From Siphlonurus alternatus (lineage: Eukaryota > Arthropoda > Insecta > Ephemeroptera > Siphlonuridae), in contig OX463784.1 in assembly GCA_949825025.1 (NCBI GenBank), forward strand, positions 1,885,168-1,949,167: a stretch of 64,000 bases of DNA, read 5' to 3'. Every line of letters starts with the position of its first letter. The stretch's first letter is position 1. A program made the translations under genes and the position numbers. Positions 4,732 to 63,589 of the stretch are shown piece after piece. Under the pieces are notes generated by a model. The model did not search any database, was not told where the DNA came from, and saw only the letters and a list, made by a program, of their open reading frames with translations.

Positions 4732-5287
4732 GGGCGGCTCGTGATCCTTTTCTCTGGGGGTGCTGTCCGACATTGGACCAGCAGAATATCATTGGGGGGC
4801 TTGGGGGGCGGAGCCCCCCAATGGCCCGCCGCAGGCGCGATTTTTTTTAAGGACACGCCCCTTTTATGGGTAAAATTATATGACAAAATCATATAATAAT
4901 GCTCCCAACAAAGAAGGAGAAATTATATAAAAACAAAAAATTAATCATTTTATTTATAATTTGTTATGACACGCACTTAATTATGCGAGCGTATGACCCT
5001 TTTGAAATCGTGATTTAATGTTTCAAACTTAATGGATATAATTTCCAATTTTTAATTATTTTTTTAATTCATGAGTCTTCAAGTGTGTGGTAAGAAAAAT
5101 ATATAAAATATTAATTGTTTTTATTTATTTTTTCTAAATAAAATAGTGTCAACCAAACTGCATTGTTAATATGTTAGTCTGTTTTTTTAATAAATATAAT
5201 AAATAAATGATGAAACCTGAATGTCTGGTATAATTTTTACGCAATGTAATATATTATGAATAAAAAATGTGATGCATACTTTTTTTA

Positions 5288-5655
5288 AGGTAGAGATAAC
5301 ACGCCCATTTTAATAAAAATCCCATTCATGAAAATTATAACAATAAAATGTTCTCCCCTACATCCCCTATCAGTAGCTAAAATATCAGGTATACAAATTC
5401 GAGCTAGTTTTCGAGTTATTAATTTTTAAGGTTAGCCAATTTTGCATGGAAGTTCCATTTCTCCATCTCCATGTCAAATTAGTCAACTTCAAAAATTAAT
5501 AACTCGAAAACAGCTCATTTTCGCAAACCTGATATTTTAGCTACTGCATGATAGGGGATGTAGAGGAGAAAATTTAATTGTTATTTTTTTTTTCATAATT
5601 TTCATAAATGGGATTTTTTTAACATTGGGTCACCTGATCCGTGTTATCTCTACGT
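5288..5655. mobile_element. TA-flanked palindromic MITE, long variant
   Basis: Ends AGGTAGAGATAACACG and CGTGTTATCTCTACGT are flanked by TA (5286-5287 and 5656-5657). The arms stay complementary through the interior: ATGTTCTCCCCTACATCCCC pairs with the GGGGATGTAGAGGAGAA block. It is a near-complete hairpin of about 368 bp nested inside the hAT-type element, with interior shared with 3816-4010. Confidence 0.8.
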
Positions 5656-6692
5656 TAACAGGATTATGATTATTTTTTCTTAAATAAATAAATACTAATA
5701 ATAATGAAATAATGTTTGATAATGCAATTTTTTCTTATAAAAATTTCATTTGTTATTTTTTTATTAAATTTTGTCTTTAAAAATTTATATTAGATTCTGG
5801 TTGTCGCCTAATTTTGTACAAATTATATATTCTATGATCGATTTATTTGATGTTCAGTTCTGATGGGTGATTACGACACGTCAGTATTATAATTGGCTTG
5901 ACCGCACATATGAGAGATTTCTCGAGCGGTATGACAGATCAAAGATCCCAATTTTTTATTATTGTTTTATTTTTTATTTTTTTTTAGCCATGCAATATTT
6001 CTTTGATTGCTCACGCATATTTGCTGCTAAATAATGTACTGCCGGTACACGCAAAACCGGGAAAATAAGCTATTTTTCTCATCCTGGAGTAGTTAACGTT
6101 TTCTTATATTTTGTACTCACGCTCGTACACTTTTACAACTTGTTTTTGTTTTATTTTTATGTTTGAATTTTCACATTAATGGTATAAAATGCTGTAGTGA
6201 ATAATTAATAAATCTAGCTCCCATGTATATCGACTTGTTCCTGGTAAACTTATAATAATGTATGGTCGCGATTCACGAACGAATTATGTTATCCAGATTT
6301 CTCAATTAATTCGATCGACGTTTAGTGTCATCGAGTTAGACTGGCGCTATTAACTGCGTGGTTATAAGTTAAGAATCCTGTTTTTGCCGTTGTTCGAACT
6401 TGAGATCTCACGATTGTTTACATGCATATCAATGTGCCATGCATGCACCACTTAATTTTCAAAAGACATCAAGTATTGGTTCTTTTTTGGTTATATATAC
6501 AGACATATTTTTTATTAAAGTAAAATAAAAGTGCTGGTCTCCATTTCTTAGATACTTCAATATATTTAGTCAATCTATGTTAGTGTATTCACTGATGAAT
6601 GTAATTAAAATTTTGATAATCTGCTCAATGAAACCATATTACAGGAAATGTCTTAGAAGTGTTGTTCACATTATTCCCGCATGTCAAATACC

Positions 6693-16432: not shown

Positions 16433-16733
16433 AAAAAAAGGTTTATATTGTCACGATAGTCTATTTTATATTTATATAAATTAGACTACCTCTCTTATAC
16501 AACCCGCCTTGCGTCTTAGTATTTTTAGTATTTGGGAGATACTGGATCAATAGTACTCGTTTACTAGGATTCATATGAGAAAATACAGATGTTTTATGTA
16601 CTTACCCCATCCCGTGAGGAAAATCCTAAATTAACCCCTACCAGTCTCCAGCCCGATTACCACCCCTGTCGGTCCTCTGCCCGATTAGCTGATTACCCGG
16701 GAGCGGGAGTATTTTCTATGTATTACTGTGTAC

Positions 16734-16741
16734 TATATAAA
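16734..16741 (+). promoter_or_regulatory. TATA box of upstream LTR
   Basis: TATATAAA-type box in U3, with the matching site in the downstream LTR at 22775-22782. A start about 30 bases downstream would place R at roughly 16765-16959. Confidence 0.6.
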
Positions 16742-16938
16742 GGCAATGCACAGAGGGAACATTGAGACAGACGGAGAGAGACACTGTTCGATTCCAGAAC
16801 ACTCACATACGCACCATCATGGTGTTTGCAGTTATCGGTACTTAGTTTTTCTTACTGACTGTTCCACTCTGAGCATCCTTCATTCTTCTGTATTTAAAAT
16901 GTAAGTATTATTTCAACTGTACCTCTATTATTTCTATC

Positions 16939-16944
16939 AATAAA
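16939..16944 (+). terminator. Polyadenylation signal AATAAA in R
   Basis: AATAAA followed after 15 bases by the switch to poly(A). The same signal lies at 22980-22985 in the downstream LTR, where the sequence instead continues into U5. Confidence 0.75.
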
Positions 16945-16957
16945 TATATATGTTAAG

Positions 16958-16959
<2 letters not shown>

Positions 16960-16997
<38 letters not shown>
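16960..16997 (+). repeat. 38-base poly(A) at the R boundary
   Basis: Uninterrupted As placed exactly where U5 should start. The position right after a polyadenylation signal argues for a copied mRNA tail rather than a random homopolymer. An assembly or gap-filling error cannot be excluded. Confidence 0.8.
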
Positions 16998-17000
<3 letters not shown>

Positions 17001-20000
17001 CGAATAGTTTTCAATTAAAAAAAAAAATAATACTGTTATAGAAAGAAATATTTTTTTTTAAGATACGCTAATATTTAACTATTTCATATTATAACAACTC
17101 AGTGTCGACATGTGTAAAAAAAAATAAGTAAAATTAAAAAAAAATACTATTAGGTTAAAAGAGTCTTTGGAAAAAATAACATAATTGTGTAATTGATATT
17201 TACAGAATTTTGATTTTACTACATAGAATAATTTTGTGCCAGGTCGCATTTAAATTTAAAAAAAAAAAATAATAATAAAATTGGAAATTAAAATGTTTTT
17301 TGTCCTTTTTTTTTTTTTTATTCAAGCGTGTTAAATTAATGATAGTAAAAACAGTTAAATTAAATGAAACTCAAGATAATAATACACTTAAACGAAAAGA
17401 TTTAAAAATTAAAAAAAAAAAAATGTTAGAAATTGTAACAAGTATAATTATTAAATAAAACAAAATTTGATAGCAATTCAATGAAAAAAAAACAAAAATT
17501 GCAACTATAAAGTAAATAAATACACAAAGAGACAAAAAAATGATTAAGAGATATTGAATAATTCTACTTATAAATTTACAGTCGTAAAAATATTTCATTA
17601 AAAAAAGAATAATTCATAAAACGTTCAGGACTTGCAAAGTTTCAAAGTTTTGTATTATGAATTAAACAAATAAGATTTAAAATATTTATGATCCAATTAC
17701 CTAAGCAGTAAGTAATTAAAATTTGTCAAATACATCGGAAAAAAATTGAAACCATATATAAAACAATTTAACAAAATATTTATTTTGGTTGTAAATTAAT
17801 ACTAATGAGTAAAAACATATCCATAGTCAAAACGAAAAGTAGATATACATTAATATTTGATAATTTCAATTTCAAATTTAAAAAAAAAAAAATATTCAAA
17901 AAAAAATCTATCAATAATTTAGCTCAATAACGCCTATTCTTGGATACACAGAAATTTTTGTCATTTGTCTAATTCAAAAACGTTATCTATAATAATCCAA
18001 TACGAAATAAAAGGAAAAAAAAATAATAACATTTTTAAAATCTTGAAAAAAGTTGTATGCTTCAAAAGTCGTAAACAATATAATACAAAAATGAACCTTA
18101 GATATTTCTATTAATTAATTTTAAATATAAATTTGTTTAAAAGAGTAATGATCAATATTAAGTATCACTCATGAAATAACATAATAAAATCAATTTGCAT
18201 TTTAATTTTTTTATAAAAAAAAAATAAATTGTACTAAATCTCATTTATATGATTTTCAGCGAAAAATATTTAAAAAAAAAATAGGTATATTATGTTTTAT
18301 TATTTCTTTTTTATGCAAAACATATTGTAATGCATTTCATGTAACTAATAACAGAATTATTCATAATTTGATCAAGTTACTTTTCTGGAATAAACTATTT
18401 TAAATATGCGATTATAAGAGTCCAAGTATTGACAAAAATTTAAATTGTAATGTCTTTCGTGTATTACATAATTATTATATATTAATAAATATAATTTTTC
18501 TCCTAATAAATTTTAATTCCAATTTTGATATTACCGTATCCTTATAAGAAAAAAAAAATTTTAATGCGTGATTTTCATACGAAATCTAGATTTAAAAATT
18601 AAAAATAAATAATTGTATCCGAGTTCAAGTAGCTTAACAATTCTTTAATCCGTTTGTGTCTTAAAAAAAATTTAATTCCATAGAAGATTTAAAAAAAAAA
18701 TTATGTAAAAACAGTATGTTACATTTATAGTATTTAATTACTATTATATAAAAGCTAGTTAAATTATTGAATACAATACAAAGTTTAATGAAATGAAAAA
18801 TTTGTACGCATTTAATTCGTAAAAAATATAATTAATTTGCAGATTTCAATTATATAAGCTTCGTAAATAAATGTTTAAGTCATATTACATTCCTATATGA
18901 TCCATGTAATATATAAATAAAAAAAAATAAAAAAATAAAAAAATATAATAAATATAAATAATATAAATATGAATCAAAAAAGTAAAACACTTAAAATATG
19001 CAAAAACATATTTTTTAAAACCAGTAATTAACTTCACATAAACTTGAAAATAATTAGTTTACATACTATAAGTGTGTCAATATTAATAACTAAAATATAT
19101 GTAATTTATGAACATTTTCTTACAAAATATACAGCATGGACAGTAATAAAAGTAAACTCTAAGAAATGAATTAAAATTAAAATTAAATTATTCGTATAGA
19201 AAAAAAAAATGTATTGTTCTTAAAATAATTAAATAATAATTTCTACTTTAATTAAATTTGTTTATAATAATTTGGTCATAAACTTCTTGCAAATTTGCAA
19301 AATGAAGAAATTTTTCCGCAGAGCAAAATTTATTTAAATCATATTCAAAATTAAAATAATTTTCAATTATTCAATTAAAAAAAAAAATGAAATAAAGAAA
19401 TTAATAAAATAAAAATATTATTGTGAAATTTCAAGTTACTATTCTATAAGAACATACTGAGCATGCTATACTATTAATGTATTATTTGTTGGTTTTGTAC
19501 TATTGCTGACAGTAAAAGATAACAAATTCTTACTTAAAGTAGAGAGAAAAAAAGCTAATTAGTCTAAACATTTCTTGAAAATAATAAATATTTTTTTTTT
19601 ATCTTTAAACATAAATACATACTATTCATTAAGTAAATGATAACAAAACTTTTGGAAAAAGAAACAAATTAATTATCCATATGAATTCAATTATAAAATT
19701 TTATTACAGTCAGCATTACTTAAAATATATGTGTATAAACCTATATCTGTACTTTATTTGTTATAAATGTTAAAATTGTGAAATAATGTAATGTGTAATT
19801 ATTGTATATTCAATTCAAAAGCATTAAAATTATTTAACATTCTCAACATTCAAAATTTAAAATAGTTGAAAAAAAATATTTATTAATGAAACTATATAAA
19901 TAAAAATGTTAAAAATTTCAATATATTACATAATCAGTTGGATTGTTATATTCAAATTACAACCTCATCAAGTAATTCAAAAAAATCAATAATGGATAAG

Positions 20001-22112
20001 TGTTATTTATTTTGTGTTATCGTAAACCTAAAAGAATTACTTTCAATATTAAAATTTCTATAATCATAATTATTTCATTATGCTATTATAAGAAACTGAA
20101 ATATTATTTTATAAAATTGATTGTTCTGATATGTGAATTTAAAAATAATAAAAAAAAAAAAATGTTATTTTCAAAATTAAAGCAAATAAGATGAAAATAA
20201 AATTAAATGTATTTTTTTTTTTGAAAATTTTAAGAACATTTATATGCATGTAACAAAAACCAATTTGGTTCAATTGAAATTTTAGAAAATAAAGGTATTT
20301 TAATAAGCTAAAAAAAAAAAAAAATACATATATTTGATAATTACATATTGTATAAATGAAATTAAATATTTATAAGATGGAAAAAAAAAAGTGAAATATT
20401 TGTGACATCTTTATCCTTCATATTTCATTGCAATTTTCACTAACAATTCTATGTTTTTGCACTTCATTACTTATCTCAGCGTAATTGTTTAAAAAAAAAA
20501 CTACTCAGTTTCACTAGAGGACAATATCAACATATGGTTCCATGTCTTCAAAAAGTTAAGTTTATAGTTCAAAAGTATAGCTACAAATTTCTTCTGTGCA
20601 TATATTCACAAACCTATGTATTGATTAATCTCATTTAAATTATACTTCAGCTGTTTTTATATATTATAACAAATGAGAAAGATCTGATATTTCAGCACCA
20701 TTTAAAACTTGATCCTACATCAATACATCGAAATATTTAAGTGTGTGTTAAAAATATCTTAAATTGTTATCCAGTGGCAATACACACTATTGCTGCTACT
20801 AAACAAAAACTATGCATTATGTCAAAATCCCACAGCAGCAGCAGCAGTATTTGGATCTACTATATATCTGTATATGCCACCAATTTTTGCCCTCGCATAT
20901 CTTCTTCGACAAGTGCATATATAATTATTCCACAGTGATTTTCCCCTTCGGCTGGTCTGTGAACTTGAGTTGAACTTTGCCCATCTATAACGTTTTCCCT
21001 ATGCATCAACTATAAGACTTTACCCAAAATTTGTCCTATATTTCCCCACATCAAACCAGCAGTGCAACACAACAACAAACTTTGCATCTAACAACAAGTG
21101 ACAAGTTTAAAAGTGAAGTGCTAAAAATTATTTAAATAGTAACATTTTGTGTGTTACCCATCAATATTACATTACAATTAAATTAACTTCTTAATTATTT
21201 TCATGAATATAAAATTGATTATTTAAAAAAAAAAAAAAAAAAATACACTAATGGTTTTAAACTCTTTAAACAAATACGATTGTAAAATGTTATTACTTTA
21301 AAAGAACTTAATAATACTGAACCTTAAATTTGTTTGACTGTTGCATGCATACTAGTAAAAAAATTATATAAAACATGACCATCTTATTTGTAATATATAT
21401 GTTTGTCTAAACTTCTATAAAAATTTAAATATTTAAAAAAAAAAAGGAATATCTATTAAAAAAATTAATATATATTTTTTTTACCTTTGCATGACAATTT
21501 TCAATGTTTCTTTGTAATTTGAAAATAATTTAAATTTAAAATGTTTCTAACTCTATTCTTTGAAAAAAAAACAAAGTTGAACAACTATAATAGTTCTATG
21601 TATTTTATAATAAACATACTACTTAAAAATTATTGCTACATGTATTCCCAAGAATTTTGTGTCCAAAATTTTTAGTCAATAAATTTGAGGACAAATTTCA
21701 TATAAGTCGTGGTGAAGTTTTGTAATAAATAACAATAAATAAAATTAAGCAAAAATAAGACAATTTAAACTAAATTAAGTCAATTGAATTAAATTATAAC
21801 GAAACTAAGTTAAATAAACTTAATTAAAAATAAATTAAATTGATGTAAATTGACTGCACCGTTTGGATAATATATCAAATAGAACTTAAAAAAAAAAAAA
21901 ACTTGATTTTGGAGCTAATTACGTATTTATTTAAATAAAACTTGGGATTATATGCAATTAATATGCATGTTAATTTTTGTATTCCTTCTTATCAATTAGC
22001 ACTATAAGCAGAAGTGCAGTAGCTAAAAATTTCAAGGGTTTACCAATTATAAATAAATATATATTTCTTTGCTCGTTAAATTTTAAATATGAGTTTCAAT
22101 CTATTTCATTAT

Positions 22113-22146
<34 letters not shown>

Positions 22147-22478
22147 TGTAAAAACTAACTGTAACTTGTACGATTTAAGGGAAAATTGGTAACTAAAAAT
22201 ATTATTGTTCTTTAACTAACTTATATATAAAATTCAAAAGGAAAAATAGAAATTAAAAGAAAAGGAAATATTTATGCTAATTGCCAATTCTTCGTTAAAT
22301 TATTTAATTATGATAAATAATCATTTGTTGCTTCATGTGTTAAAAAAAATGTATATTAATAGCATTATGTATGACAAAACGAGTTCTTTTGACCAGATAA
22401 TTTTTTTTTATAAATAATTGAGTAAATTCTAAATAAAATTTAATAAAATATTTTTGGAAGTCAGGAGCCTTCCACTTT
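16998..22478 (+). other. A-rich non-coding interior of the LTR element
   Basis: About 5.5 kb of very AT-rich sequence. Runs of eight or more As recur throughout the plus strand and clearly outnumber T-runs. The longest frames are 60-75 codons, with no gag, protease, RT, RNase H or integrase motif. A less AT-biased island spans about 20800-21120 and includes CAGCAGCAGCAGCAG; its nature is unknown. A-bias on the sense strand is common in retroelement genomes, but the absence of any coding relic in so young an insertion means it was non-coding when it moved. Confidence 0.7.
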
Positions 22479-22489
22479 AAAGCGGGGAG
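22479..22489 (+). promoter_or_regulatory. Polypurine tract
   Basis: AAAGCGGGGAG lies immediately before the TG of the downstream LTR. It is the usual primer site for plus-strand DNA synthesis. Confidence 0.75.
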
Positions 22490-23153
22490 TGTCACGATAG
22501 TCTATTTTATATTTATATAAATTAGACTACCTCTCTTATACAACCCGCCTTGCGTCTTAGTATTTTTAGTATTTGGGAGATACTGGATCAATAGTACTCG
22601 TTTACTAGGAATCATATGAGAAAATACAGATGTTTTATGTACTTACCCCATCCCGTGAGGAAAATCCTAAATTAACCCCTACCAGTCTCCAGCCCGATTA
22701 CCACCCCTGTCGGTCCTCTGCCCGATTAGCTGATTACCCGGGAGCGGGAGTATTTTCTATGTATTACTGTGTACTATATAAAGGCAATGCACAGAGGGAA
22801 CATTGAGACAGACGGAGAGAGACACTGTTCGATTCCAGAACACTCACATACGCACCATCATGGTGTTTGCAGTTATCGGTACTTAGTTTTTCTTACTGAC
22901 TGTTCCACTCTGAGCATCCTTCATTCTTCTGTATTTAAAATGTAAGTATTATTTCAACTGTACCTCTATTATTTCTATCAATAAATATTTATGTTAAGAT
23001 CAATGCTAGTTTTATAATTTAAAGATCTCACAATCATTAGATAGGCTTACGCTAGTAGACTTGGGTATACGATCCTGGTGTCATGGGGTATGATTATAGA
23101 GAAATATGAATGATGATTAGACGCCCTAGTTAAAGACAGAAATCCCCGTGACA
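22490..23153 (+). repeat. Complete downstream LTR
   Basis: 664 bp, TGTCAC...GTGACA. U3 is about 22490-22805 with a TATA box at 22775-22782, R about 22805-23000 with AATAAA at 22980-22985, U5 23001-23153. A good splice donor-like GTAAGTATT lies in R near 22942. Confidence 0.85.
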
Positions 23154-23229
23154 ATATAGACGCGTATAAGATGAGTTGTAGACGTAATTTTTCAAAATGA
23201 TGATTCAAGCACAGTTTGATATATGTGAT

Positions 23230-29777: not shown

Positions 29778-30838
29778 CTGCAGTATAGTATATTTTTTAT
29801 TTATAAAATATTTCTTCCTGTATTATTCAAGTCATATTGAAAATAAAACGATTTTGTCACACTGAGAGGCACTTTTACCTTTTTTATTATTATCATTTTT
29901 TTATAATTAAAGGGTATGATTGCAATTATACTCTAGCATTGAATTCTAAGTTGCAGATGAACAATTTCTAAGTTCAGACGACGTACCACACATGACAAAG
30001 AAAAGAGTCCCTCAGATCAGCAGCAGCATTAGCAAATTAAAAGCAAGGTTTTATGTTTTGCAACTGCAAGAAAGGTTGTCAATCTAAAACATGTTGTGCT
30101 AAGAAAAAATTTAAATTATTTTTAAAATGCTATGATAGTAATCCTTGCAAAATGAAGTCAAGTTCAGGTAATAATAAGATCAGGTGAGAATCAGTTATAA
30201 TAATTATTTTTTTTGCATGCTTATGTTTTTTGTTTTTTCAGTTTTTATAATTGATATAATAGGTTTTGTACTATCTTGAGGAGCTCTTATCTTCATAGCA
30301 AGTTCTATAAATTAAGTTAAAATGATTTTATAATATATCAGCTGTAAAAAAATATTTAAATAAACTAACATACAATATTAATATAAACAGTGTGACAAAA
30401 TCGTATTTCTCAGTATGACTTGAATAATACACAGAAAGAAATGTTTTAGTAAAAAATATATACACGCTGTGCTAAAATGTTAAATTTGTATTTTTGTCAA
30501 TTAATTAAAAAAGTGTTGCAATTAAAATATTATTAAATTCACAATATTTTATTATCATCTAGAAATGATCAAAACAGTGAGCAAAGTCCGAAATAAAACT
30601 TTTCGTCGGGGTTTGCTTTTTTCGAGTTGAGCACTTCTAGAAATGATCAAATTTAAATGAGCAAACCCCGAAATAAAACTGCTCGTCAGAGTTTGTTTTT
30701 TTCCGATTTGAGCACTCCTAGAAATCAGCAAAGCCTGAAATATTTGTTAATTTCGAGCTTTGCTCAAATCGCTAGGGGCACACCTAGATATGCGCATTTT
30801 TTTTGGGCTGGGTCCGAATTCGAGCTTTGGTGCCAACA
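29778..30838. mobile_element. Foldback-like element, copy X3, left end missing
   Basis: The internal part is 29778-30550, including sub-terminal inverted repeats: TTCAAGTCATATTGAAAATA near 29828 pairs with the AGTATGACTTGAATAATA region near 30412. The right modular end is 30555-30838: AGCAAACCCCG...CGGGGTTTGCT hairpin units separated by TCTAGAAATGATCAAA, closing in GGTGCCAACA. The left modular end, present in the other two copies, is absent. Confidence 0.75.
30053..30187 (+). pseudogene. Cys-rich mini-ORF in the Foldback-like element
   Basis: 44 codons starting MFCNCKKGCQSKTCCAKKK, with further Cys residues spaced as KCYDSNPCK. Cys-dense blocks of this CxCKKGC type are known as zinc-binding tails in several transposon proteins, which is why I record it. 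A stop lies just upstream in frame. A GTGAG donor-like site lies at the end (CAG/GTGAGAA). In copy X2 (about 56580) the ATG is GTG and the frame ends early. In X1 the minus-strand version reads SKTCCCAKN. It is probably the last exon of a lost element protein. Confidence 0.4.
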
Positions 30839-30898
30839 TATATACGAATAATTGAACAAAAGTCAATTCACTAGCTTTACACATTGGAACAATATTAA

Positions 30899-31097
30899 AG
30901 GTGGATTTTCATGAGCGACAACGGCGATGCGAAGCGATTTTAACGTTAAAGCCATGAAATCCCAAGTAGCGAGCTTATTCACTGGATATTGCGTTAATTA
31001 TAGTCTTCTCTTTTATTTTAATCGCCAAATATGGCTGACAATTGATATTACAGCAAGTGCGCATTTTTCACGTCACGTCGTAGGCTGGAAATTTACC
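30899..31097. mobile_element. TTAA-flanked MITE (AGGTGGATTTTCATGAGCG family)
   Basis: Flanked by TTAA at 30895-30898 and 31098-31101. About 199 bp with GCGACAACGGCGATGCGAAG near the start and CGCCAAATATGG in the middle. Orthologous in copy B at 59811-60009. Confidence 0.75.
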
Positions 31098-31241
31098 TTA
31101 AATTTATATATTTGGCATTTTGAGTTTCTCAATTCTTAAACGAAATATTTTTTAAATTTTGAATTGACTTTCCTAAAATATAAATGTCATGAAGCACAAT
31201 CATTCACCACTGCCAAATTAAATCCTAATTCTTCCTCCTAG

Positions 31242-31390
31242 CACTGGTCTGTCCATCCTCACGATCGCTCGAGAGGCCGCCCCACCAGACGCGCGGTGGA
31301 CAATTTACGAAGCCCCTCCACGTCGGTCAGAGACCCCACGTCACCACGATCGTTCGTCCGGCCTGCAAGGATTACACGTGTCTTCTCCAG
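31242..31390 (+). CDS. Exon-like block E1, copy A
   Basis: A GC-rich island of 149 bp between an acceptor-like TTCTTCCTCCTAG and a donor-like CAG/GTATAA. One frame is open throughout and reads ...RHHDRSSGLQGLHVSSPG; it continues in phase into E2 when joined there. The encoded stretch is Pro/Ser/Arg-rich and probably disordered. No family was recognised. Near-identical in copy B (60154-60302), with a divergent third relative at 52300-52434. It could be a conserved exon of a host gene carried by the duplication, or merely a GC-rich repeat. Confidence 0.35.
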
Positions 31391-31571
31391 GTATAATATT
31401 GTACACTTCTGGGCAGACCGAATGTAAACCTAATTTTTTAATAGGCATGAAGGGTCAGGTAACACGAAACAGCTGATCGACATAGTCCCACTTGATTAAC
31501 ATGTGAACCTTAGCAACCTCATAAAAATTATGAATTAATTTTGAGACAGTTCTTAGCACTAACAGTAAAAA

Positions 31572-31735
31572 TTAAGTTGCAGAAAAAATTTCAAAACAAC
31601 CGGATTAGCCAATTTTTTTTAATTAATTTTTTTTAACTTTTCAATATAGGACTTTCTCATACGGAAAGCTAAACTAAAAAGGTAATTTAAAAAAATCGTT
31701 TTGATTGTTTTGAAATTTTTTCTGCAACTTTTTTT
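31572..31735. mobile_element. Small fold-back element
   Basis: AAGTTGCAGAAAAAATTTCA pairs with GAAATTTTTTCTGCAACTTT around an AT-rich centre. Also present in copy B near 60490-60650. Confidence 0.65.
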
Positions 31736-32159
31736 TTGCCAAGGAATTTCTCTTAACAAAAATTAAAAAGATTATTACTTGAAATATTTATTTATATTAA
31801 TGATATCAACTAATTATTAACTATTTCATCGAATAACATAGTTTCTATACCAAAGTTACACCACATAATAAATTGAGGAGTTTATATACCTTATTTTTTT
31901 TGCATGATTATAAGTTTTAAATACATATATATTTTTTTTTTCATTTTTTTTTTTATAATAAAAATTGAAATAATATTATCCAAATGTGCCTCCTTTTGTA
32001 TATTTATTTTAGTTTAAATTTATATTATAATACAAAAATAAGGAATTTCATGCACTTATTTATAGAATTACAAGGCAAAAGCTCAATACCAACCCGGAGC
32101 TCTGGTATTAGCAATCAAATCAAATCCCCTGAATGAAATAATATCTCATTGTAGTATAT

Positions 32160-32400
32160 GGACAACCTGCATGAAAAATTTTATTGCAGAAATGAAAAGA
32201 GGGTAACAATTTATGCTACTCTGAATTTTTTCAGATTTTTTGAGTTTCAGAACTATTTTAAAATTATAATTGGAACTGCGGCCACGATCCTTGGAGCCGT
32301 CAAATCGCGTCAATGCCCTATAATCCATTTTATGAATGATTTAGGGGTGCCGACTTAAATTACAAAAATTTTCAATAATTATTTAAATATAGATAAGGTA
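32160..32400. mobile_element. Half copy of the 39412-family MITE
   Basis: GACAACCTGCATGAAAAATT, TTTATTGCAGAAATGAAAAG and the GCGGCCACGATCC centre are present, with the right arm mostly missing. Orthologous in copy B at 61068-61310. Confidence 0.7.
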
Positions 32401-32568
32401 CTAGGACTGCATTAGCTAAGCAAAAAAACAAACAATGTACACAATCAGAGAAAAATACGTTAGATATAATGTCTTGAGAGCGTCTTTTATCTCAATTATG
32501 AGGTTGTTATTGAATTTATGGCAAGTATGCAAGATTGATATCGCATTGAAGTTTCATTTCTCCCTCAG

Positions 32569-32739
32569 GTGGTGCTGGAGAACACAATTTGAATCCTCGA
32601 GGTGGTGACCAACCCTTCTCGTGGTCACCGAGAAACTGGAGGGTGGCGGTACCGTCGATCGAACGACCCCTCGGGAACGATTTTCACTCGTGAATCTCAA
32701 AGAGGTTAGTACGTCGCGACCAAAATTGCTTTGCCGTGG
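32569..32739 (+). CDS. Exon-like block E2, copy A (disrupted)
   Basis: Acceptor-like TTTCTCCCTCAG precedes it. The open frame continues E1 in phase (GAGEHNLNPRGGDQPFSWSP then WRVAVPSIERPLGNDFHS) and then hits TGA, where copy B has TGC. Two donors are possible: AAAGAG/GTTAGT at 32704, and GTGG/GTAGAG at 32739; the second keeps phase with E3. Product unknown. The stop makes copy A the degraded one. Confidence 0.35.
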
Positions 32740-33097
32740 GTAGAGCTTCAAGAATTTATGTAAGGAAGGACAAATTAATATGACAATAATAAAAAATAAT
32801 AATGTGTACAGTACAATTCTAAGCATTTTTTAACCAAAATATATTAACAAATTTCATACAGGTTGCTTGTTATATTTATTTTTTGAACAGAAATTTACAG
32901 CATGAGGAACTGTAATTGTTATTGTATTAAATCAAAGTAAATTATAGCTGTCTCTATTCTACGACCAGAGTATGAGCAATTACTGCATGGAAATAAATGG
33001 AAATCGGAGGTAAGGTGGATCTATGTACCCCCCCCCCCCATCTTGTCTACGTCACTGACTATACGAGTGTCATTGACCTCTCTGCATGTTGTTGCAG

Positions 33098-33141
33098 GAG
33101 GTAAAGACATCGAGGAACGAGTTCTCGTGCAGCCAATCAAG
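33098..33141 (+). CDS. Exon-like block E3, copy A
   Basis: 44 bp between GTTGTTGCAG and AAG/GTACTC. In the phase left by the distal E2 donor it reads GKDIEERVLVQPIK. Identical in copy B. Confidence 0.35.
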
Positions 33142-33666
33142 GTACTCTCCTCACCTTGGAAATTTCCCTCGCAATTAAATCTCGTTACGATTTTAATATT
33201 CAGGAGCGGATCCGGAAAAAAAATCGGGGGGGGGGAAGCCTTTACAAGGCTTTTGGAATTGGGGAAATGCCTATGTTTCCCATGTTAAGTCCGAAATTTC
33301 AGAGTGCCCCTTCCCCCCTGGATTCGCGCTTGTCAATATGTAAAAATAAATGCTCTTGGTATATGAGAAATGTTTTCAGGAAGGCGAATTTGTATAATAC
33401 GGAAGTTATACAGATTTCTTTTCATTATTTTTATCAAATTAAAGATGCCATGCATTCATGAGAAGTTTTGTTGTATTTTGACTTTTTCAACACCTTGTTC
33501 GTATCTTAAACAATGAAATGATATCAGATCTGTTTTTATGTTTTCGACATCACATTTTTTACTAAAATTATTTTCAAAATGGTATTTATGTCATCACAAT
33601 TTGATATTTACTACATAAAATTTTCCTAAATTCGGACTCGCCAGCAATCGGACTCGCTGTCTGCAG

Positions 33667-33770
33667 TGGACACACCCGCTGTCAAGACGAAGTAACTCCC
33701 CCCATGTATGTGACACCACGAGGTGCGCTCCGTGGTCGCTAGCCTCCATGACTCAGCATGTCCTCGCCAG
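33667..33770 (+). CDS. Exon-like block E4, copy A
   Basis: Follows CTGTCTGCAG and ends CCAG/GTAGGA. In phase 0 from E3 it reads WTHPLSRRSNSPHVCDTTRC then ...SMTQHVLAR. The third relative at 51391-51464 uses an acceptor about 20 bp further in. Both share the intron flank (TGTATAGTCTGTCCGGGATA). Confidence 0.35.
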
Positions 33771-35603
33771 GTAGGAATCATAATGTATAGTCTGTCCGGG
33801 ATAGGTTGATCTGACGTCACGATCTTTTGTCCTCCAATACGATCCTAATGGGAGGGTCACGTGACTTAATAATGTTCAATGGAAAAAATTTGCTTCAATA
33901 TCGTTCAGAAAATCAAGAGTTTTAATCACCCACATCCTTAAATCAAAATTCTCAGGAGGGGGGGGGGGAATTAAATGGACAGATTGTTGTACTATATATT
34001 TAAATGGAGAACCTTCTTGAGCTATGTAAAATATATTTTGTATTTTTTCTAATTTTCAAACATCCTTATATAAAGCTAATTCAAGGACTTATTATTGACT
34101 TCTGTTACATTTAAAAATCCTTGAATTTGCAAGCAAAACGCTGGGGCGTCATGACGTCATATAAACAAACAATAACACAATAAAGGCGGATTCAGGTGGC
34201 GACAACGGCGATCGATGCGACTTGATTTTGTCACACAAGCTGTGAAATCCTATGCGCACTGAGAAAAATAGTTAAAGAGTAACTTTTGAAATCAAAAGTT
34301 TAACACTGGTGGATCTATGCCAGCCCCAAATTCTTTTAAAAGTTAAGTACTCGAGTACATTGAAATGTACTTTGTATAATATATCAGAAAGTAAAGAGTC
34401 AGAAGATAAAATGCTAGCGACTGCGGTGTAGTATTGTATGAGCTGCAATGCCTAGAATGTCACTGTTTTAAATATAAAATTCTAAGTAGTAACTCCTTAA
34501 AATTGTAAGCAGCGGGCTCTCTATGGCTTTATGTCACAAGTGCGCTACTTTGTTAAGCTGTAAACTCTTTAGGTTTTTAAGCGTAATAACATTACTTTAT
34601 AAGTAGAATACTACTTTACTTTTTATTGAATGTACTTTTTATTTTTAAGTACATAATGGGTAAGATTCAATGTATCAAACCATTATTTTTCAAGAAATAT
34701 CTACATTACTTATTATAGAGTAAACTATATTATTTTATCTACTTAAGCAATAGAAAGCTACCTGTTAATCTTTTTGCTTTCAAATGCATGCAATAACTTA
34801 ACATGTTAAATATTTACTATTTTCATGGCAAATGTGTAGCAACTTAAATCATAAATGAATATATTGTTCAGTTGGATTCATTCATCGACTAACATGAAGT
34901 AAAAGCATTAAAGTACTGTTTCAAGTAAACTTCAATGCTTTTGCTTTGTGTCAATATATAAATTGATCCAACTCCACATTGCTACAAAAAAAGTCACAGT
35001 TACAACAGATTTGGAATCGTTATTTTAAAAATAGTAAATATAAATAAAGACATAAAAATAATAACTACATACTACATCATAACTTAATCAATGAAAAAAA
35101 TGAATATGATTACAATATACAATTTATTGAAATAAATGGACATACAGAAATAGCATACATAATAAACCTTGCTTATTTAACATAACATCAGAGCAGCGTA
35201 TTATATGATGTTGCATGATGTGTTGAAATTACAATTTAATAACTATGAAAACATTATCTACACGGAACTTCTATTCTGCAGACGCTGCAGCTCAGTGCAC
35301 AGGTTTCCTGGAACCTGAAAGTAACATTAAAATCATGCTTTAAAACATTGTCATAGCAATATCATTCCTATTAAAAATATGGGGCGTGAAAAATTATGGA
35401 CATACGTTGCTGCTTCACAAATATTTTTTTTAATGCCGTTGTTTAAAAGTTTTCCTGTATATAAAACTTTTGTTATGACGAATAAAAAAAAAAGGCACAT
35501 TTTAATTTTCAGTGAATAAAATTATTTGAAAATTTTAAATAATATTCAATAAGTTCACATAATATTTTAATGGAAATTTCCCCACGCCCCAAACTTTTTT
35601 TTT

Positions 35604-37193: not shown

Positions 37194-38120
37194 ATAAATC
37201 ACTAAACTTTATGACACAACAGATAAATAATTAATGGATTTAACTAAAAATCTTTAGTTCAAAAAGATAGTACTAAAGATGACTTCGATGTTTGTAGATA
37301 ACTTGTCGAATATAAATGGCCGCAAACACGGCAAGCAAAGATAGATGAACGACTGACCAACTGTCATCGCTGTGCGCATGTGGTGCGCATGCGCTTGGTA
37401 AGTAAGAATTCCGTAACTTTAAATATTATGTTGTACTCTTTAACTTTTTAAGCATTATACGACTTGATATTTTATGGCGTTATGAAGTAACTTTTACCTA
37501 TTTGATTCTAATGTTTTTTAATGTTAAAAGCTATGAAGCAAAGAGAGTAAGAAACTGTTTAAAAGTTCAAACTGTAAAATGCTATACATCGAGCGCTGTA
37601 AGTTAAAAAACAAACAAGAGCAACACATATAATGTTAAATACAAAATTATTAGATATTGTAGTATCATTTAGGTCGATACTTTATTATATACTTACATTT
37701 ATTGAATTTAAATTATTTAACTTAAGTCTCCAGATTATGTATTTTATAACTAACTAATAACAGAGTTCAGCCTTAAAGCATTATGTACTTGCTGCATTAA
37801 AATTTCTTTAATGTTTTAAAACTTTATAAGTTTAACCTTTCACCGACCTAAGCAGCGAAAAAGCAGCAAAACTTTAAAATTTTATGTAGAAGACGGTTGC
37901 ATTTTAAAAATAATTGCTTTGATTATATACCAAAGTAATTTGAAGCTTTATTTTTTTCCTCAGTGCGGAAGCAAATTTGCCATTGTGGCGGCGAATATCA
38001 CGTTAAATTACGAGGCTTTTTTTTTTAATTGCCAAATATGGCCTCCAATGGATGTTACAGCAAATGCGCATTCTTCGCTTCGCGTCGCAGGCTAGAAATC
38101 GCGATGTGAATCTGCCTTAA

Positions 38121-38324
38121 AGGTGGATTTTCATAAGCGGCAACGGCGATGAAGGGCGATGTGACGCGATTTTGACGTAAAAGCTGCAAAATTCTATGCG
38201 GCGAGCGAATTCTCCAAATATTACGTTAATTGCAATGCTCTTTTACTTTTAATCGCCAAATATGGCCGCCGATGGCAGTAAGTGCACATTATTCTTTTCT
38301 GAAAATCGCTCATGTAAACCCACC
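38121..38324. mobile_element. TTAA-flanked MITE, adjacent copy
   Basis: TTAA at 38117-38120 and 38325-38328. Starts AGGTGGATTTTCATAAGCGG and ends CGCTCATGTAAACCCACC. Orthologous in copy B at 63335-63538. Confidence 0.8.
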
Positions 38325-38375
38325 TTAACGCTTTTTCCTCCCCTACTCGCTACATTATAACTTGCATGGTAAATA

Positions 38376-38915
38376 CTAGGGGGGTTATTCAAAAAGTTCA
38401 CGGACTAGCATTTTAAGGGGCACCACTACATGTAAAATTTAATTTCTATGTTCACCATGAGTATTTCAAATTTCAAGTATCCAGCTCTGTTCTTTTTCAG
38501 TTCGATTCAGGAAAGTCCTCAAATAGTAAGAAAATATGCATTGGCGAAGGTCTCATGGTGTTCTTCGTCGGTAAATCTCGTACCACCAAGTTAATCCATA
38601 TTCTTATTTAAAATAGCGAAGAGATAATAGTCTGAGGGTGCCACAGGTCAGGTGAATAGGGTGGATGGGGAAGCATTTTTCAACCTAATTCCTCGATTTT
38701 TTTAGTTGTCACCTTGCAGGTGTGGAGTCTTGTATTGTCATGATGAAAGATTATTTTCTTCTTGTTTTCACCTGACATTGATTGTCACATAAAAAAAATA
38801 ATTAAAAAAAAATAATAATAATAATTCTGGAGCTGGAGACTTGAAATTTGAAATGTGAACATGTGAAATACACGTGGCAGGGTTAACATAAAAATTAAAT
38901 TGTACATGTAGTGTT
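38376..38915 (-). pseudogene. Mariner-type transposase remnant, copy A
   Basis: Begins next to TA as CTAGGGGGGTTATTCAAAAA, a mariner-like end. On the minus strand the catalytic C-terminal region can be read in pieces: HHDNTRLHTCKV-like, then PPYSPDL, a 2-base frameshift, then APSDYYLF (38616-38641), followed by LGGTRFTDEEHHE. APSDYYLF holds the third Asp of the DD34D triad. The N-terminal half is missing. A partial inverted copy of the element's end is seen at about 38826-38912. Dead. Confidence 0.75.
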
Positions 38916-42111: not shown

Positions 42112-43645
42112 AACATGAAATTTTATGCTCAAGAAGAGGAAAAAAGAAGTAATCTCGTCCTTTTCCTTCTTTTTTTTTTTTTTTAAATGGTGCAAATTGA
42201 GATGAAATTAGACGAGAGGGGGCCAATAAAAGATGAAATTTATTTCAAATTTGGGTTTGTAATGGATTGCAGATTTCACAATTTATTCATTATTTTTTTA
42301 AAAATTGTTTACTTATATTTCTAGTAACTATGACATCAAAATAATAACAAGGGTGAATTATATTACATTGCGTATATATAATAATTAATTTATTCTATGG
42401 TAATTCATAAATTAATTAATTACTTAATTAATAATTATGATATATATTATGGTTATTAATTAAAGGCCTTCTAAACCTTTTCACAGTATTAAGTACACGG
42501 TTAGCTTTGCTTCAGTGTGATTCAGCCGCATAATTTTTTGGTTTCAGTAGCACAAATATCAGAGATAATAGCCGATGAAGAAGCACCTGTGACATCACTC
42601 ACGCTCATTCAGCGGCGACAATATAGGGAAATCCCTGCAAAAGATAGGTTTACTCCCGCTGCAACCACAGCCACAATTTTACTTCTGGAATTTTGAAACT
42701 TTACCAGGGCAGTCTTGATAATATTTGTCAAATAGACTGAAAGAATTTTTTTTGGTGGCGTGTGTACAGACTGAGTTATTGCGGTAGCAAGATAAGCAAA
42801 AAATTTAACATTGTTTTCCTATACAACATTTTTGCTCCTCTTTCTACCGCAATAACTCGGTTTGTATGAATGTCATAAAAAAAAAATCTTTCAGGCTATT
42901 TGACAAGTACTATCAAGACTGCCCTGGTAAAGTTTCAAAATTCCAGAAGTAAAATTGTGGCCGTGGTTGCAGCGGGAGTGAACCTATCTTTTGCAGGGAT
43001 TTCCCTATATTGTCGCCGCTGAATGAGCGTGAGTGACGTCACAGGTTCCTTTTCATCGGCTATTATCTCTGATATTTGTGCTGCTGAAACAAAAAGAATT
43101 TATGCAGCCGAATCATACTAAAGCAAAGCTAACCGTGTACTTAATATTGTGCAAAGTTTCATAAGGCCTTTAAGTTAAATTATTTCGTGTAATAAAATGC
43201 ACGGCGGCCGGTATAATAAAAATATATTATTATATATATGTATAATTTTTCATTGAAATAATTCAATTATTGTGTATATTATATTTATGTAATATATTAA
43301 AATTTAAAATTATTTTTAGCCATTTTTTACGATTTTATATATGAATTATCATATAAGAATAAATTATTTAATTATTACAATATATACGCAATGTAATATA
43401 TATTTTACCCTTTATATTATTTTGATTTTATTATAGTTACAAGAAATATAAGTAAACAATTGTAAAAAAAAAATAATGAATAAATTGTGAAATCTGCAAT
43501 GCATTACAAACCCGAGTTTGAAATAAATTTCATCCTTTATTCGCCTCCTCTCGTCTAATTTCATCTTAATTTGCACCATTTTAGAGAAAAAAAAAGAGGG
43601 AAAAGGACGAGATTACGTCTTTTTTCCTCTTCTTGAGCATAAAAT
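42112..43645. mobile_element. Palindromic element split by a TTAA palindrome
   Basis: Outer arms 42112-42446 and 43330-43645 are complementary (AAATTTTATGCTCAAGAAGA / TCTTCTTGAGCATAAAATTT) and surround the inner palindrome 42464-43169. A diverged relative of the arm lies at 53590-53780. No transposase. Confidence 0.75.
42464..43169. mobile_element. TTAA-flanked 706 bp palindromic MITE (AGGCCTT ends)
   Basis: TTAA at 42460-42463 and 43170-43173. Ends AGGCCTTCTAAACC and GTTTCATAAGGCCT. Arms of about 330 bp are highly complementary (GCTCATTCAGCGGCGACAAT / ATTGTCGCCGCTGAATGAGC). A third TTAA-site family in this window. Confidence 0.85.
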
Positions 43646-47453: not shown

Positions 47454-47644
47454 GTGAGTTACCATTTATTTATATAAATAGTTGTTGAACTACATTATCA
47501 TTATAATGCACAAAATGTCGTAATGGAAATTTAATTTTTAATTTCAGAAATGTATAGAGGGTGCAATGTAATGCTATACTCTTTTTTTATCAGATTTTTT
47601 AGAGTCAAGTAACAATTTTTTTAAAAACTATTGAAAGTTAAAAG

Positions 47645-50238
47645 ACAAAGAAAGTGTCAATGGAGTAATAGAGACAACACCAGAGGCAGTGTCTAACATT
47701 CTGGCGGACACATTCTCCTCAATCTCAGACCCAACTAACTATGACCCAGCATTCATCCCTCACAAGGACAGGGCAGTGAGTAGACCACCCGACTTCTCCA
47801 CAAGAGAAGACCTGGACTACAATCATCCTTTCACCATGTGGGAGATGGAGGCAGAACTCAAAGATGCCAAGAGCTCAGCTCCTGGCCAAGACCAAATCCA
47901 CATAGAGATGTTGCGACACCTGAGCAATCAAGCGTCTGTTCAACTTCTCCAGATGTACAACCGAATCTGGCTCGAAGGCATTTTCCCACAACTGTGGAAA
48001 AAAGCCATCGTCATCCCGATCTACAAAACCGGCAAAAACAAAATCGATCCGAAGAGCTACCGCCCAATCGCCCTCACTTCTGTCCTGTGCAAAGTGATGG
48101 AAAGAATGGTCAACAAGCGCCTGGTGTGGTTCGCTGAAAAACATGACCTTCTCTCCAATGAGCAATGTGGGTTCAGACAACATCGCTCTACTACCGACAA
48201 CCTGGTGAAACTCGAAAACGAGATCCAGAACGCCTACCTCAACAAAGAACACCTCGTAGCCGTGTCTTTCGACATGGAAAAGGCTTACGACACGACCTGG
48301 AGACACGGAATACTCAAGACCCTCCATGAATGGGGACTGCGCGGTCACATGCCAGTCTTCATCCGAGAGTTCATGAAGGACCGAGTCTTTTCAGTACGTG
48401 TTGGTAACACCATCTCTGATCAACGAGCCCAGGAGACTGGCGTCCCCCAAGGATCGGTGCTGAGTGTAACATTGTTCGCTGTGGCGATCAACAGCATCGT
48501 TCGCAATGTCAGTCACCCCATCAGGAGTTCGCTGTATGTGGATGACTTCATCATCTACTGCGCAGCAAAACTTCTGAGGACGGCTCAACGACAACTTCAA
48601 ATGTGCATCAACAAACTGTTCAGGTGGAGCAGATCCAACGGATTCAAATTCTCTGCGCAGAAAACCACTGTGGTCCACTTCCACAGACTGCGTGGTGTGC
48701 AACCAGAGCCTGAGCTCCAGATGGGAGGAATTCCGATCCCATGCTCTGATACTGTCCGCTTTCTGGGACTCATTTTCGACAGCAAATTGTCGTGGAGGCC
48801 CCATCTTAGAAGCCTGAAGGCAAAATGCCAACAGCCACTTAACCTTCTCCGTGTCTTGAGTGGAAAGTCCTATGGTGCTGACCGAGTGGTACTCTTACGA
48901 CTCTATCGCGCCCTGGTTCGTTCCAAGCTAGACTATGGAGCAATAATCTACAACTCAGCTAGACCGTCATATATCAAAACGCTTGACCCAGTCCACAACA
49001 CTGGACTGAGGCTGGCCACAGGAGCATTTCGCTCTAGCCCAATAGAAAGCCTCTGTGCAGAGGCTGGAGAACCACCACTCAAGAGCAGGCGAGACTTGCT
49101 AACTTGCAACTACATCGCGAGTCTTCTTAGCAAGCCACAGCACACAACATTCGAGTGCGTCTTCAAACCAAAGCACAGGAATAAATACCTCCAAAGACAT
49201 AAAACAACAAGGCCTCTGGGCATCCGGGCGAGGGAACTTCTCACAGGAGACCTGGGAATCCACTATCTCCCCGCTGTGTACAACCAGGTACCAAGCTCGA
49301 TTGCACCGTGGAAAATTCCTCGCCCACGCGTGAGACTTGACCTGGCAAACAACAAAAAAGACAGTACAGACCCCTTACTCTACAGGGGCATTTACTCAGA
49401 AGTGATAGACCAGTACAGAGACTACACTCTGGCCTTCACCGACGGCTCAAAGAAGGACGATGACGTTGATTGTGCCTTCGTCATCAACAACGAAGAACAT
49501 GGATACTGCCTGCGTGAGCAAACAAGTGTATTCACATCAGAAATGTACGCCATCTGGAAAGCTCTCGAGCACTGTTTGGAAAGAGACGACAGATCCATTA
49601 TGATCTGTACCGACTCCCTCAGTAGCCTCCAGACAATTGAGAAAACATTCCCCAAGAATCCACTGGCAAAGAAAATCCAAGATTGTCTCTACCAGTTGGC
49701 GAACCAGGACAAATACGTCTCTTTCCTCTGGGTACCCGGCCATGCTGGAATCCCTGGAAATGAGGCTGCAGACAAAGCCGCAAAGCGAGCCTCTGAGAAA
49801 GAGGACTGGGACTCGGAGGAGATCACATCAGACGACTTCCGCAACTCGCTACAACTGGACATCCAAAGGAGATGGGAAGCATCGTGGCAAGAGGTCACAT
49901 ATGACAACAAACTGCGGAACATCAAGGAAATGCCACGCGCATGGCAGACCAGCTACAGAAAGAACCGCAGGGACGAGGTCATCCTCGCCAGACTGCGCAT
50001 CGGATACACCAGGCTGACACACGGCCACCTCATGGAGCACGAAGCCCCTCCTCTGTGTGCAACCTGTGCCGAAGAACTGACAGTGGACCACATCCTCACG
50101 AACTGTCGCCACTACGTGGAAGAAAGAAGGACCTGCAAAATGACAGGCTCCACTAAAGAGGTTCTCGCAAACGACGAGGAAGCAGTGCAGCGCATCTTAG
50201 AGTTCACCACTAAGGCGAACCTACGAAGAGAGCTGTAA
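47645..50238 (+). CDS. LINE ORF2 fragment: reverse transcriptase + RNase H + zinc finger (I-group)
   Basis: Open for about 864 codons from the element's truncated 5' edge (LKDKESVNGVIETTPEAV...), with no natural ATG at the start. Domains: linker with APGQDQIHIEML; RT with SYRPIALTSVLCKVMERMVN, motif A SFDMEKAYDTTW, motif B TGVPQGSVLSVTLF and motif C YVDDF (about residues 85-300); RNase H with FTDGSKKDD, SEMYAIWKALE, CTDSLSSLQT and WVPGHAGIPGNEAAD (about 590-720), keeping the catalytic acidic residues; and a C-terminal CATCAEELTVDHILTNCRHY Cys/His finger. RT plus RNase H and YVDDF point to the I-superfamily (I, Nimb or a relative). The endonuclease half is lost, so the copy cannot move itself, but RT and RNase H look intact. 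GC content is well above its surroundings, consistent with a recent arrival. Confidence 0.9.
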
Positions 50239-59383: not shown

Positions 59384-59810
59384 AGAAATGATCAAAACAG
59401 TGAGCAAAGTCCGAAATAAAACTTATAGTCGGGGTTTGCATTTTTCGAGTTGAGCATTTCTAGAAATGATCAAATTTAAATGAGCAAACCCCGAAATAAA
59501 AATTCTCGTCAGTTTTTTTTTTTCTGATTTGAGCACTTCTAGAAATGATCAAATTTAAATGAGCAAACCCCGAAATAAAAATTCTCGTCAGTTTTTTTTT
59601 CTGATTTGAGCACTTCTAGAAATGAGCAAATTTAAATGAGCAAAGCCCGAAATATTTGTTATTTTCGAGCTTTGCTCAAATCGCTAGGGGCACACCTAGA
59701 TATGCGCATTTTTTTCGGTCTGGGTCCGAATTTGGGCTTTGGTGCCAACATATATACGAATAATTGAACAAAAGTCAATTCACTAGCTTTACAGATTGGA
59801 ACAATATTAA

Positions 59811-60009
59811 AGGTGTATTTTCATGAGCGACAACGACGATGCGAAGCGATTTTAACGTTAAAGCCGTGAAATCCCAAGTAGCGAGCTTATTCACTGGATA
59901 TTGCGTTAATTAAAGACTTCTCGTTTATTTTAATCGCCAAATATGGCCGACAAATGATATTACAGCAAGTGCGCATTTTTCACGTCACGTCGTAGGCTGG
60001 AAATTTACC
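59811..60009. mobile_element. TTAA-flanked MITE, copy B ortholog of 30899
   Basis: TTAA at 59807-59810 and 60010-60013, with the interior nearly identical to 30899-31097. Confidence 0.75.
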
Positions 60010-60153
60010 TTAAATTTATATATTTGGCATTTTTAGTTTCTCAATTCTTAAACGAAATATTTTTTAAATTTTGAATTGACTTTCCTAAAATATAAATGTC
60101 ATGAAGCGCAATGATTCACCACTGCCAAATTAAATCCTAATTCTTCCTCCTAG

Positions 60154-60302
60154 CACTGGTCTGTCCACCCTCACGATCGCTCGAGAGGCCGCCCCACCAG
60201 ACGCGCGGGGGACAATTTACGAAGCCCCTCCACGTCAGTCAGAGACCCCACGTCACCACGATCGTTCGTCCGGCCTGCAAGGATTACACGTGTCTTCTCC
60301 AG
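60154..60302 (+). CDS. Exon-like block E1, copy B
   Basis: As E1 in copy A, with a few substitutions (CACGTCAGTCAG against CACGTCGGTCAG; GCGGGGGAC against GCGGTGGAC), none creating a stop in the shared frame. Acceptor TCCTCCTAG, donor CAG/GTATAA. Confidence 0.35.
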
Positions 60303-61067
60303 GTATAATATTGTACTGCACTTCTGGGCAGGCCGAATGTAAACCTAATTTTTTAATAGGCATGAAGGGTCAGGTAACACGAAACAGCTGATCGACCTAG
60401 TCCCACTTGATTAACATATGAACCTTAGCAACCTCATAAAAATTATGAATTAATTTTGAGACAGTTCTTAGCACTAACAGTAAAAATTAAGTTGCAGAAA
60501 AAAATTCAAAACAACTGGATTAACCATTTTTTTTTAATTAATTTTTTTAACTTTTCAATGTAGGACTTTCTCATATGGAGAGCTAAACTAAAAAGGTAAT
60601 TTAAAAAAATCGTTTTGATTGTTTTGAAATTTTTTCTGCAACTTTTTTTTCCAAGGAATTTCTCTTAACAAAATTTAAAAAAATTATTACTTGAAATATT
60701 TATTTATATTAATGATATCAACTAATTATTAACTATTTCATCGAATAACATAGTTTCTATACCAAAGTTACCCCACATAATAAATTGAGGAGTTTATATA
60801 CCTTATTTTTTTGCATGATATTTAGTTTTAAATACATATATATTTTTTTTCATTCTTTTTTTATAATAAAAATTGAAATAATATTATCCAAATGTGCCTC
60901 CTTTTGTATATTTATTTTAGTTTAATTTTATATTATAATAAAAAAATAAGGAATTTCATGCACTTATTTATAGAATTACAAGGCAAAAGCTCAATACCAA
61001 CCCGGAGACCTGGTATTAGCAATCAAATCAAATCCCCTGAATGAAATAATATCTCATTGTAGTATAT

Positions 61068-61310
61068 GGACAACCTGCATGAAAAATTTTATTGCAGAAA
61101 TGAAAAGAGGGTATCAATTTATGCTACTCTGAATTTTTTCAGATTTTTTGAGTTTCAGAACTATTTTAAAATTATAATTGGAACTGCGGCCACGATCCTT
61201 GGAGCCGTCAAATCGCGTCAATGCCCTATAATCCATTTTATGAATGATTTAGGGGTGCCGACTTAAATTACAAAAATTTTCAATAATTATTTAAATATAG
61301 ATAAGGTACT
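61068..61310. mobile_element. Half copy of the 39412-family MITE, copy B
   Basis: Ortholog of 32160-32400; GACAACCTGCATGAAAAATT onward. Confidence 0.7.
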
Positions 61311-61476
61311 AGGACTGCATTAGCTAAGCAAAAAAACAAACAATGTACACAATCAGAGAAAAATACGTTAGATATAATGTCTTGAGAGCGTCTTTTATCT
61401 CAATTATGAGGTTGTTATTGAATTTATGGCAAGTATGCAAGATTGATATCGCATTGAAGTTTCATTTTTCCCTCAG

Positions 61477-62014: not shown

Positions 62015-62058
62015 GAGGTAAAGACATCGAGGAACGAGTTCTCGTGCAGCCAATCAAG
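62015..62058 (+). CDS. Exon-like block E3, copy B
   Basis: GTTGTTGCAG acceptor, AAG/GTACTC donor. GKDIEERVLVQPIK in the joined frame. Confidence 0.35.
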
Positions 62059-63330: not shown

Positions 63331-63334
63331 TTAA

Positions 63335-63538: not shown

Positions 63539-63589
63539 TTAACGCTTTTTCCTCCCCTACTCGCTACATTATAACTTGCATGGTAAATA

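Follow-up and report, generated by a model that had tools for sequence, protein, structure and literature searches.

Large retrotransposon derivatives (LARDs) are non-autonomous LTR elements with a long non-coding interior. Here we describe an LTR retrotransposon copy in a 64,000-nucleotide stretch of the Siphlonurus alternatus genome (the window) whose family resembles LARDs, as usually defined, in its LTRs, PBS-like motif, polypurine tract (PPT), long interior devoid of long ORFs and presence in several copies. The window copy itself departs from that plan, as U5, PBS and a 5' portion of the interior are missing and a run of 38 A (A38) stands in their place.

Several described systems bear on such a structure. 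Template switching between packaged RNAs is documented (PMC4997597, PMC5408686), and the LTR-mediated retroposition and retroviral transduction treated there resemble the present case in that nascent cDNA moves to a different packaged RNA where the two are briefly similar, after which the molecule is integrated with its LTR ends. Those systems differ from the window copy, in which the acceptor would be the poly(A) tail of an RNA of the element's own kind, placed inside the left LTR, and in which no host gene has been captured (PMC5408686, PMC4997597). Asymmetric-LTR proviruses, which likewise have one incomplete LTR, have been attributed to misalignment during reverse transcription and plus-strand transfer from a second genome copy; the available part of that study counts 24 of 26 proviruses with a partially deleted 3' LTR and two with 5' LTR deletions of less than 100 nt, and, unlike the case here, describes none with poly(A) in place of U5-PBS (PMC9278108). 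In Ty3, plus-strand transfer uses R and U5 at the end of the minus strand, and a minus strand ending in the complement of R could similarly receive plus-strand strong-stop DNA; however, the Ty3 minus strand ends in a normal U5 complement, whereas in the window copy the complement of an A tail would lie inside R instead (PMC5371799). There are thus precedents for template switching, for the capture of host RNA and for LTR asymmetry (PMC5408686, PMC4997597, PMC9278108); in the open literature, to which most subscription journals do not belong, no title was found that points to an integrated left LTR with poly(A) where U5-PBS would be.

The window copy and its left junction

The coordinates of the element are collected in Table 1. 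A sequence-only reading of the window had reported that both LTR parts measure 511 bp and that the left one ends 15 nt past AATAAA and continues as 38 A. Alignment of 16449-16959 with 22490-23000 confirms the lengths, with 2 mismatches (16570/22611, T/A; 16948/22989, A/T), and places the end of R at 16959, with A38 adjoining at 16960. The short inverted ends TGTCAC...GTGACA are present on a direct LTR pair of which the left member is partial, and the PPT AAAGCGGGGAG stands directly 5' of the right LTR. Directly after the left LTR of the window copy a PBS is absent; the earlier claim that this end is without U5 and PBS holds up, with relatives carrying U5 and a PBS-like motif where the window copy has A38.

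Table 1. Features of the window copy (positions within the window)
Feature	Position	Strand	Remark
Whole element	16449..23153	+	LTR retrotransposon copy; C7:1901616-1908320
Left flanking ATAT (target site)	16445..16448	+	ATAT is the usual family target
Left partial LTR, U3-R, 511 bp, without U5	16449..16959	+	
Probable TATA box TATATAAA in U3	16734..16741	+	Putative promoter function, judged from sequence
AATAAA polyadenylation signal	16939..16944	+	Present in 37/38 other LTRs too
A38	16960..16997	+	Putative copy of an RNA poly(A) tail; part may be an internal A-run
19-nt segment TCACGAATAGTTTTCAATT	16998..17016	+	16/19 like an A-run-flanked segment of the C1 sister copy
A11 run of interior	17017..17027	+	Homology to relatives starts around here
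A-rich interior	17017..22489	+	Equals the 3'-terminal ~5.5 kb in the complete relatives' ~9.8 kb interior
A19 run	21225..21243	+	Followed by the copy's own counterpart of the 19-nt-like sister segment
Polypurine tract (PPT) AAAGCGGGGAG	22479..22489	+	Directly 5' of right LTR
Right LTR, complete U3-R-U5, 664 bp, TGTCAC...GTGACA	22490..23153	+	
U5 of right LTR	23001..23153	+	No left-LTR counterpart
Right flanking ATAT	23154..23157	+	

The interior (16998-22456) is 80% A+T and 44% A, with 5.1 runs of at least eight A per kb against 1.1 equivalent T-runs; the window flanks hold 0.6-0.7 such A-runs per kb. Under the standard code its + strand contains no ORF of at least 80 aa and its - strand a single 80-aa ORF, and under code 5 no ORF exceeds 153 aa; neither an Rfam family at the gathering cut-off nor a tRNA was detected by scanning the window. 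Capture of a host gene was considered and rejected, given the missing + strand 80-aa ORF and an interior that is the family's own, and a mitochondrial origin of the interior was rejected on ORF content and on identity to the family interior.

Elsewhere, the window contains long direct duplications of 95-98% identity (30558-34256 and 59459-63181; 37957-38785 and 63173-64000), a large palindrome of about 720 bp (42456-43178) with an 88% match to its own reverse complement, and an open 867-aa non-LTR retrotransposon frame (47635-50238), whose best match is 50% identical and whose relatives carry reverse transcriptase and RNase H domains.

A search of the 455.7 Mb host genome with the right LTR gave 84 candidates, 40 of which were scored, with 48 matched stretches; the 38 comparison LTRs are all the others among these 40 of 84. 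R continues into U5 in every one of the 38, and none has an A-run of at least 8 at the boundary. Among the stretches that cover query position 511, only the left LTR of the window copy stops (at 514), while the rest reach 664. A38 also exceeds the longest interior A-run (27) in 11 interior pieces totalling ~46 kb. The junction string ATGTTAAGAT followed by A15 has one exact match in the 455.7 Mb, namely the window copy, and 424 matches against 300 for the control when up to 2 mismatches are allowed; none of the seven near-match loci looked at (of 423 besides the window copy) matches the LTR. The genome search for the LTR-poly(A) junction that had been proposed alongside the first description was thus carried out and returned no other copy with the junction, and we reject the junction as a shared family trait on the strength of this single exact match genome-wide, with seven of the 423 near matches looked at.

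Complete and rearranged relatives

Normal U3-R-U5 relatives with a PBS-like motif, whose recovery had likewise been suggested, do exist: two complete close relatives lie at C1:30220945-30232049 and C5:38642728-38653935. Complete relatives span ~11.1-11.2 kb in the order LTR, PBS-like motif, ~9.8-9.9 kb interior, PPT and LTR, with family LTRs of about 650-715 bp, and a second subfamily with an LTR identity of about 78-79% follows an identical plan. The PBS-like motif ATTTGGTGGAGGCG follows 16 of the 38 other LTRs, the putative PBS TTTGGTGGAGGCG coming after U5 in these 16, and a PPT motif precedes 14/38 (in one case AAAGCAGGGAG), with neither motif at the remaining 8/38; these same motifs assign each LTR its left or right role, and the 16/14/8 counts are descriptive rather than a test. 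Of the 16 left ends in the family, ATAT flanks 12; of the 14 right ends it flanks 11 (1 of the 14 is not assessable). Long interior matches of 73-94% occur at many places (40 of 57 candidates scored), and up to the PPT the window interior is 94% identical to the C1 copy (starting at query 20) and 91% identical to the C5 copy (starting at query 23).

Long ORFs are scarce in the stretches scanned. Within the complete close relatives, stretches L009 and L011 have no ORF of at least 150 aa and L010 has a single 104-aa ORF on the - strand; L014, L016 and L019 have none of at least 120 aa. The scans covered L009-L011, L014, L016, L018 and L019 and list only ORFs closed within the stretch. On the RNA strand, the interior pieces hold 2.2-7.1 runs of at least eight A per kb, compared with 0-1.1 for T-runs. 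LTR pairs are mostly free of mismatches: 8 of 13 have none (one of these with 8 gap columns), and the other five have 1, 2, 2, 15 and 16. The family is recently active, large and non-autonomous, because its LTR pairs are mostly mismatch-free and its long interiors lack long ORFs; with a long non-coding interior that is conserved in several copies, it is LARD-like. The window copy is young and derives from the same kind of RNA as its relatives.

One otherwise ORF-poor copy (L018, C7:12955800-12963000) holds four overlapping ORFs of 121-284 aa at about 4935-5845; this cluster, near a break in the match to the window interior, is probably a foreign insertion. Loci on C2, C9 and C12 (L076, L075 and L077, at C2:3638000-3644000, C9:2030000-2036000 and C12:120000-126000; also L087) have stretches near the 3' end that are 70-80% identical to the family, and they carry a long proline-rich ORF with no Pfam match. 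Further upstream at C2, an ORF resembles Baculo_F weakly, with a score below cut-off; apart from it, two ORFs of at least 90 aa are listed in the 3 kb upstream at C2, of 97 and 91 aa and both on the - strand. It is possible that these C2, C9 and C12 loci are env-bearing relatives, and perhaps helpers. Exact LTR and PPT strings had no matches in viral and prokaryote contigs.

Rearrangement at A-runs is not confined to the window copy. The C10 copy (L013, C10:18095061-18098427) has two full LTRs, a PBS motif and an interior of only ~2.0 kb, in which sequence near L009:930 is joined to L004:260 with a 34-nt A-rich overlap, both sources having A-runs there. Its LTRs differ at 16 sites, and the copy is older for that reason. 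The C15 copy (L014/L049, C15:77867-86288) is missing ~2.3 kb directly after the PBS motif, with an A-run near the 3' side only, so that one of the two internal deletions examined joined A-run to A-run. The LTRs of the C15 copy show no mismatch, and since this copy is without the ~2.3 kb, an intact 5' region may be dispensable for transposition. An odd, 3'-truncated product, the copy at C3:20694805 (L006:2150-2660), consists of a left LTR, a PBS motif and ~410 nt of interior followed by an inverted R/U5 piece, past which lie a short palindrome and an AAAT-type microsatellite.

Proposed origin of the A38 junction

Three features go beyond what the sequence-only reading had noted: ~4.3 kb of missing interior, a family without long ORFs, and 19 nt of apparently third origin. 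The place in the C1 copy that matches the start of the window interior lies ~4.3 kb inside the LTR (L009 about 4426), which means that U5, PBS and ~4.3 kb at the start of the interior are missing from the window copy, where A38 and 19 nt stand instead. In 15 other copies that reach this interior end, homology starts at query 12-23, that is, around A11 (17017-17027). The 19 nt between A38 and A11 were sought at the homologous place in 12 relatives, a set made up of the fetched stretches apart from two with no match there, and none carries them. With 3 mismatches, they resemble TCACTAATAATTTTAAATT of the C1 copy (L004:249), which is flanked by A13 before and A22 after. This is the closest of 28 listed A-run-flanked family segments (some counted twice through overlapping loci, and so not all independent), and none of 3000 letter shuffles was equally close, single-letter shuffling being a lenient control. 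When up to 3 mismatches are allowed, a genome-wide search for the 19 nt extended by A6 finds the window copy, its nearest sister (the C1 copy) and two sites outside the family, a number equalled by the 2 matches of the reversed control. TCAC, the first four letters of the 19 nt, also fit the C1 copy in place, and the window copy's own counterpart at 21244 is less similar to the 19 nt than the C1 segment is. Judged by these resemblances, an A-run-flanked family segment is a probable but not proven source of the 19 nt.

The junction could in principle postdate integration. End joining during a later DNA deletion would have fused the end of R to an internal A-run, which then expanded to 38 A, with loss of U5, PBS and 4.3 kb; expansion of A-runs is possible, and in six of 12 relatives a run of 10-19 A lies on the upstream side of the homologous place. 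We nonetheless regard this as improbable. Chance alone would have had to put the left break at just the cleavage distance expected after AATAAA, the 9-19 nt that separate the A-run from the homologous place in those six relatives are gone in the window copy, the 19 nt would demand an extra templated insertion, and A38 is longer than the interior A-runs read. An assembly error or chimeric consensus is very unlikely, even at so difficult a homopolymer as A38: R passes precisely into A38, which is followed by a distinct 19 nt, the contig measures 27 Mb, and the R/U5 boundary is ordinary in the 38 other LTRs. Furthermore, the copy is not a collapse of scored copies, because its junction is distinct and its interior shares no more than 94% identity with any scored relative.

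ATAT on both outer flanks, together with the TGTCAC...GTGACA ends, had been taken to mean that the element integrated as a unit; ends and flanks are indeed there, but ATAT is no proof, as it is also the family's usual target and matching flanks carry little weight when the family mostly inserts at ATAT. Two same-family insertions, each with its ATAT, could then have been rearranged together, a poly(A)-ended left piece being joined to the right part of another copy. This would take two events and a separate origin of U3-R-A38, and the two LTRs of the window copy have in common 5 bases that 7 other close LTRs do not show, with differences at just 2 of 511 positions, which makes it, by a narrow step, the least credible of these accounts. 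For the empty site, no listed place had both flanks adjacent (40 of 2719 and 40 of 2179 candidates scored); repetitive sequence extends through the left flank to within 3-9 bp of the LTR, and among the right-flank matches listed none starts less than 66 bp into the flank.

We consider it likely, instead, that the window copy is a product of aberrant reverse transcription, in which the growing strand moved from one A-run to another and then to the poly(A) tail of a second RNA, where it went on through R and U3 before normal integration. The minus strand would have started normally, with tRNA-primed synthesis of R-U5 and a first jump to a 3' R, and U3, the PPT and ~5.5 kb of interior would have been copied from the 3' end. 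At the internal A11, the T-ended nascent strand may have lost its template and re-paired with other A-runs, landing first, probably, on an A-run beside a 19-nt segment of another family RNA and then on the poly(A) tail of a second, co-packaged RNA, from which A38, R and at least part of U3 would have been copied. The resulting minus strand would end in R/U3 complement, and transfer of plus-strand strong-stop DNA through R would leave U3 with an exact end. Another possibility is that the left end was primed from the PPT of the second RNA itself. Integrase would then have inserted the product at ATAT.

We infer a poly(A)-tail origin of A38 from the sequence, and we likewise infer the order of the jumps and the mode of plus-strand transfer. 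A poly(A) tail is the simplest source of A38, because such a run is found in 0 of 38 LTRs, begins at the expected cleavage distance and exceeds the interior A-runs. RNase H degrades the template's own 3' end once it has been copied, and the tail should for this reason belong to a second RNA. Since the 5 bases common to both LTRs are absent from the 7 relatives, both RNAs would have the same or nearly the same source. The switch originally put forward, of the minus strand to a second RNA's poly(A) tail, is supported by these bases, which point to an RNA of the same lineage, and by the U5 and PBS-like motif of the relatives. Plus-strand priming at the PPT of that RNA, the other half of the proposal, is a candidate route, and transfer through R would equally give an exact left end. 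Were reverse transcriptase to have run past the second RNA's PPT, a 3' overhang would need removal; by analogy, a stop within U3, with strong-stop DNA pairing to the R/U3 complement, would be the preferred route to the exact end. A read-through RNA polyadenylated in the 5' LTR would be as good an acceptor as genomic RNA.

It is possible, though we regard the generalization as rather doubtful, that in this A-run-rich family internal A-runs and the poly(A) tail are interchangeable landing sites for nascent cDNA, and that hopping onto tails is a recurrent route to integration-competent elements without a left U5 or PBS, bypassing PBS-dependent second strand transfer. If the proposed origin is right, the window copy would be a natural fossil that records in one molecule two RNAs per particle, a jump to a poly(A) tail and integration, and its integrated left end would never have had U5 or PBS. 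An LTR cut at the poly(A) site and followed by an A-run would offer a searchable signature, countable in long-read genomes, and the A-run richness of a non-coding element would be linked to the manner of its rearrangement.
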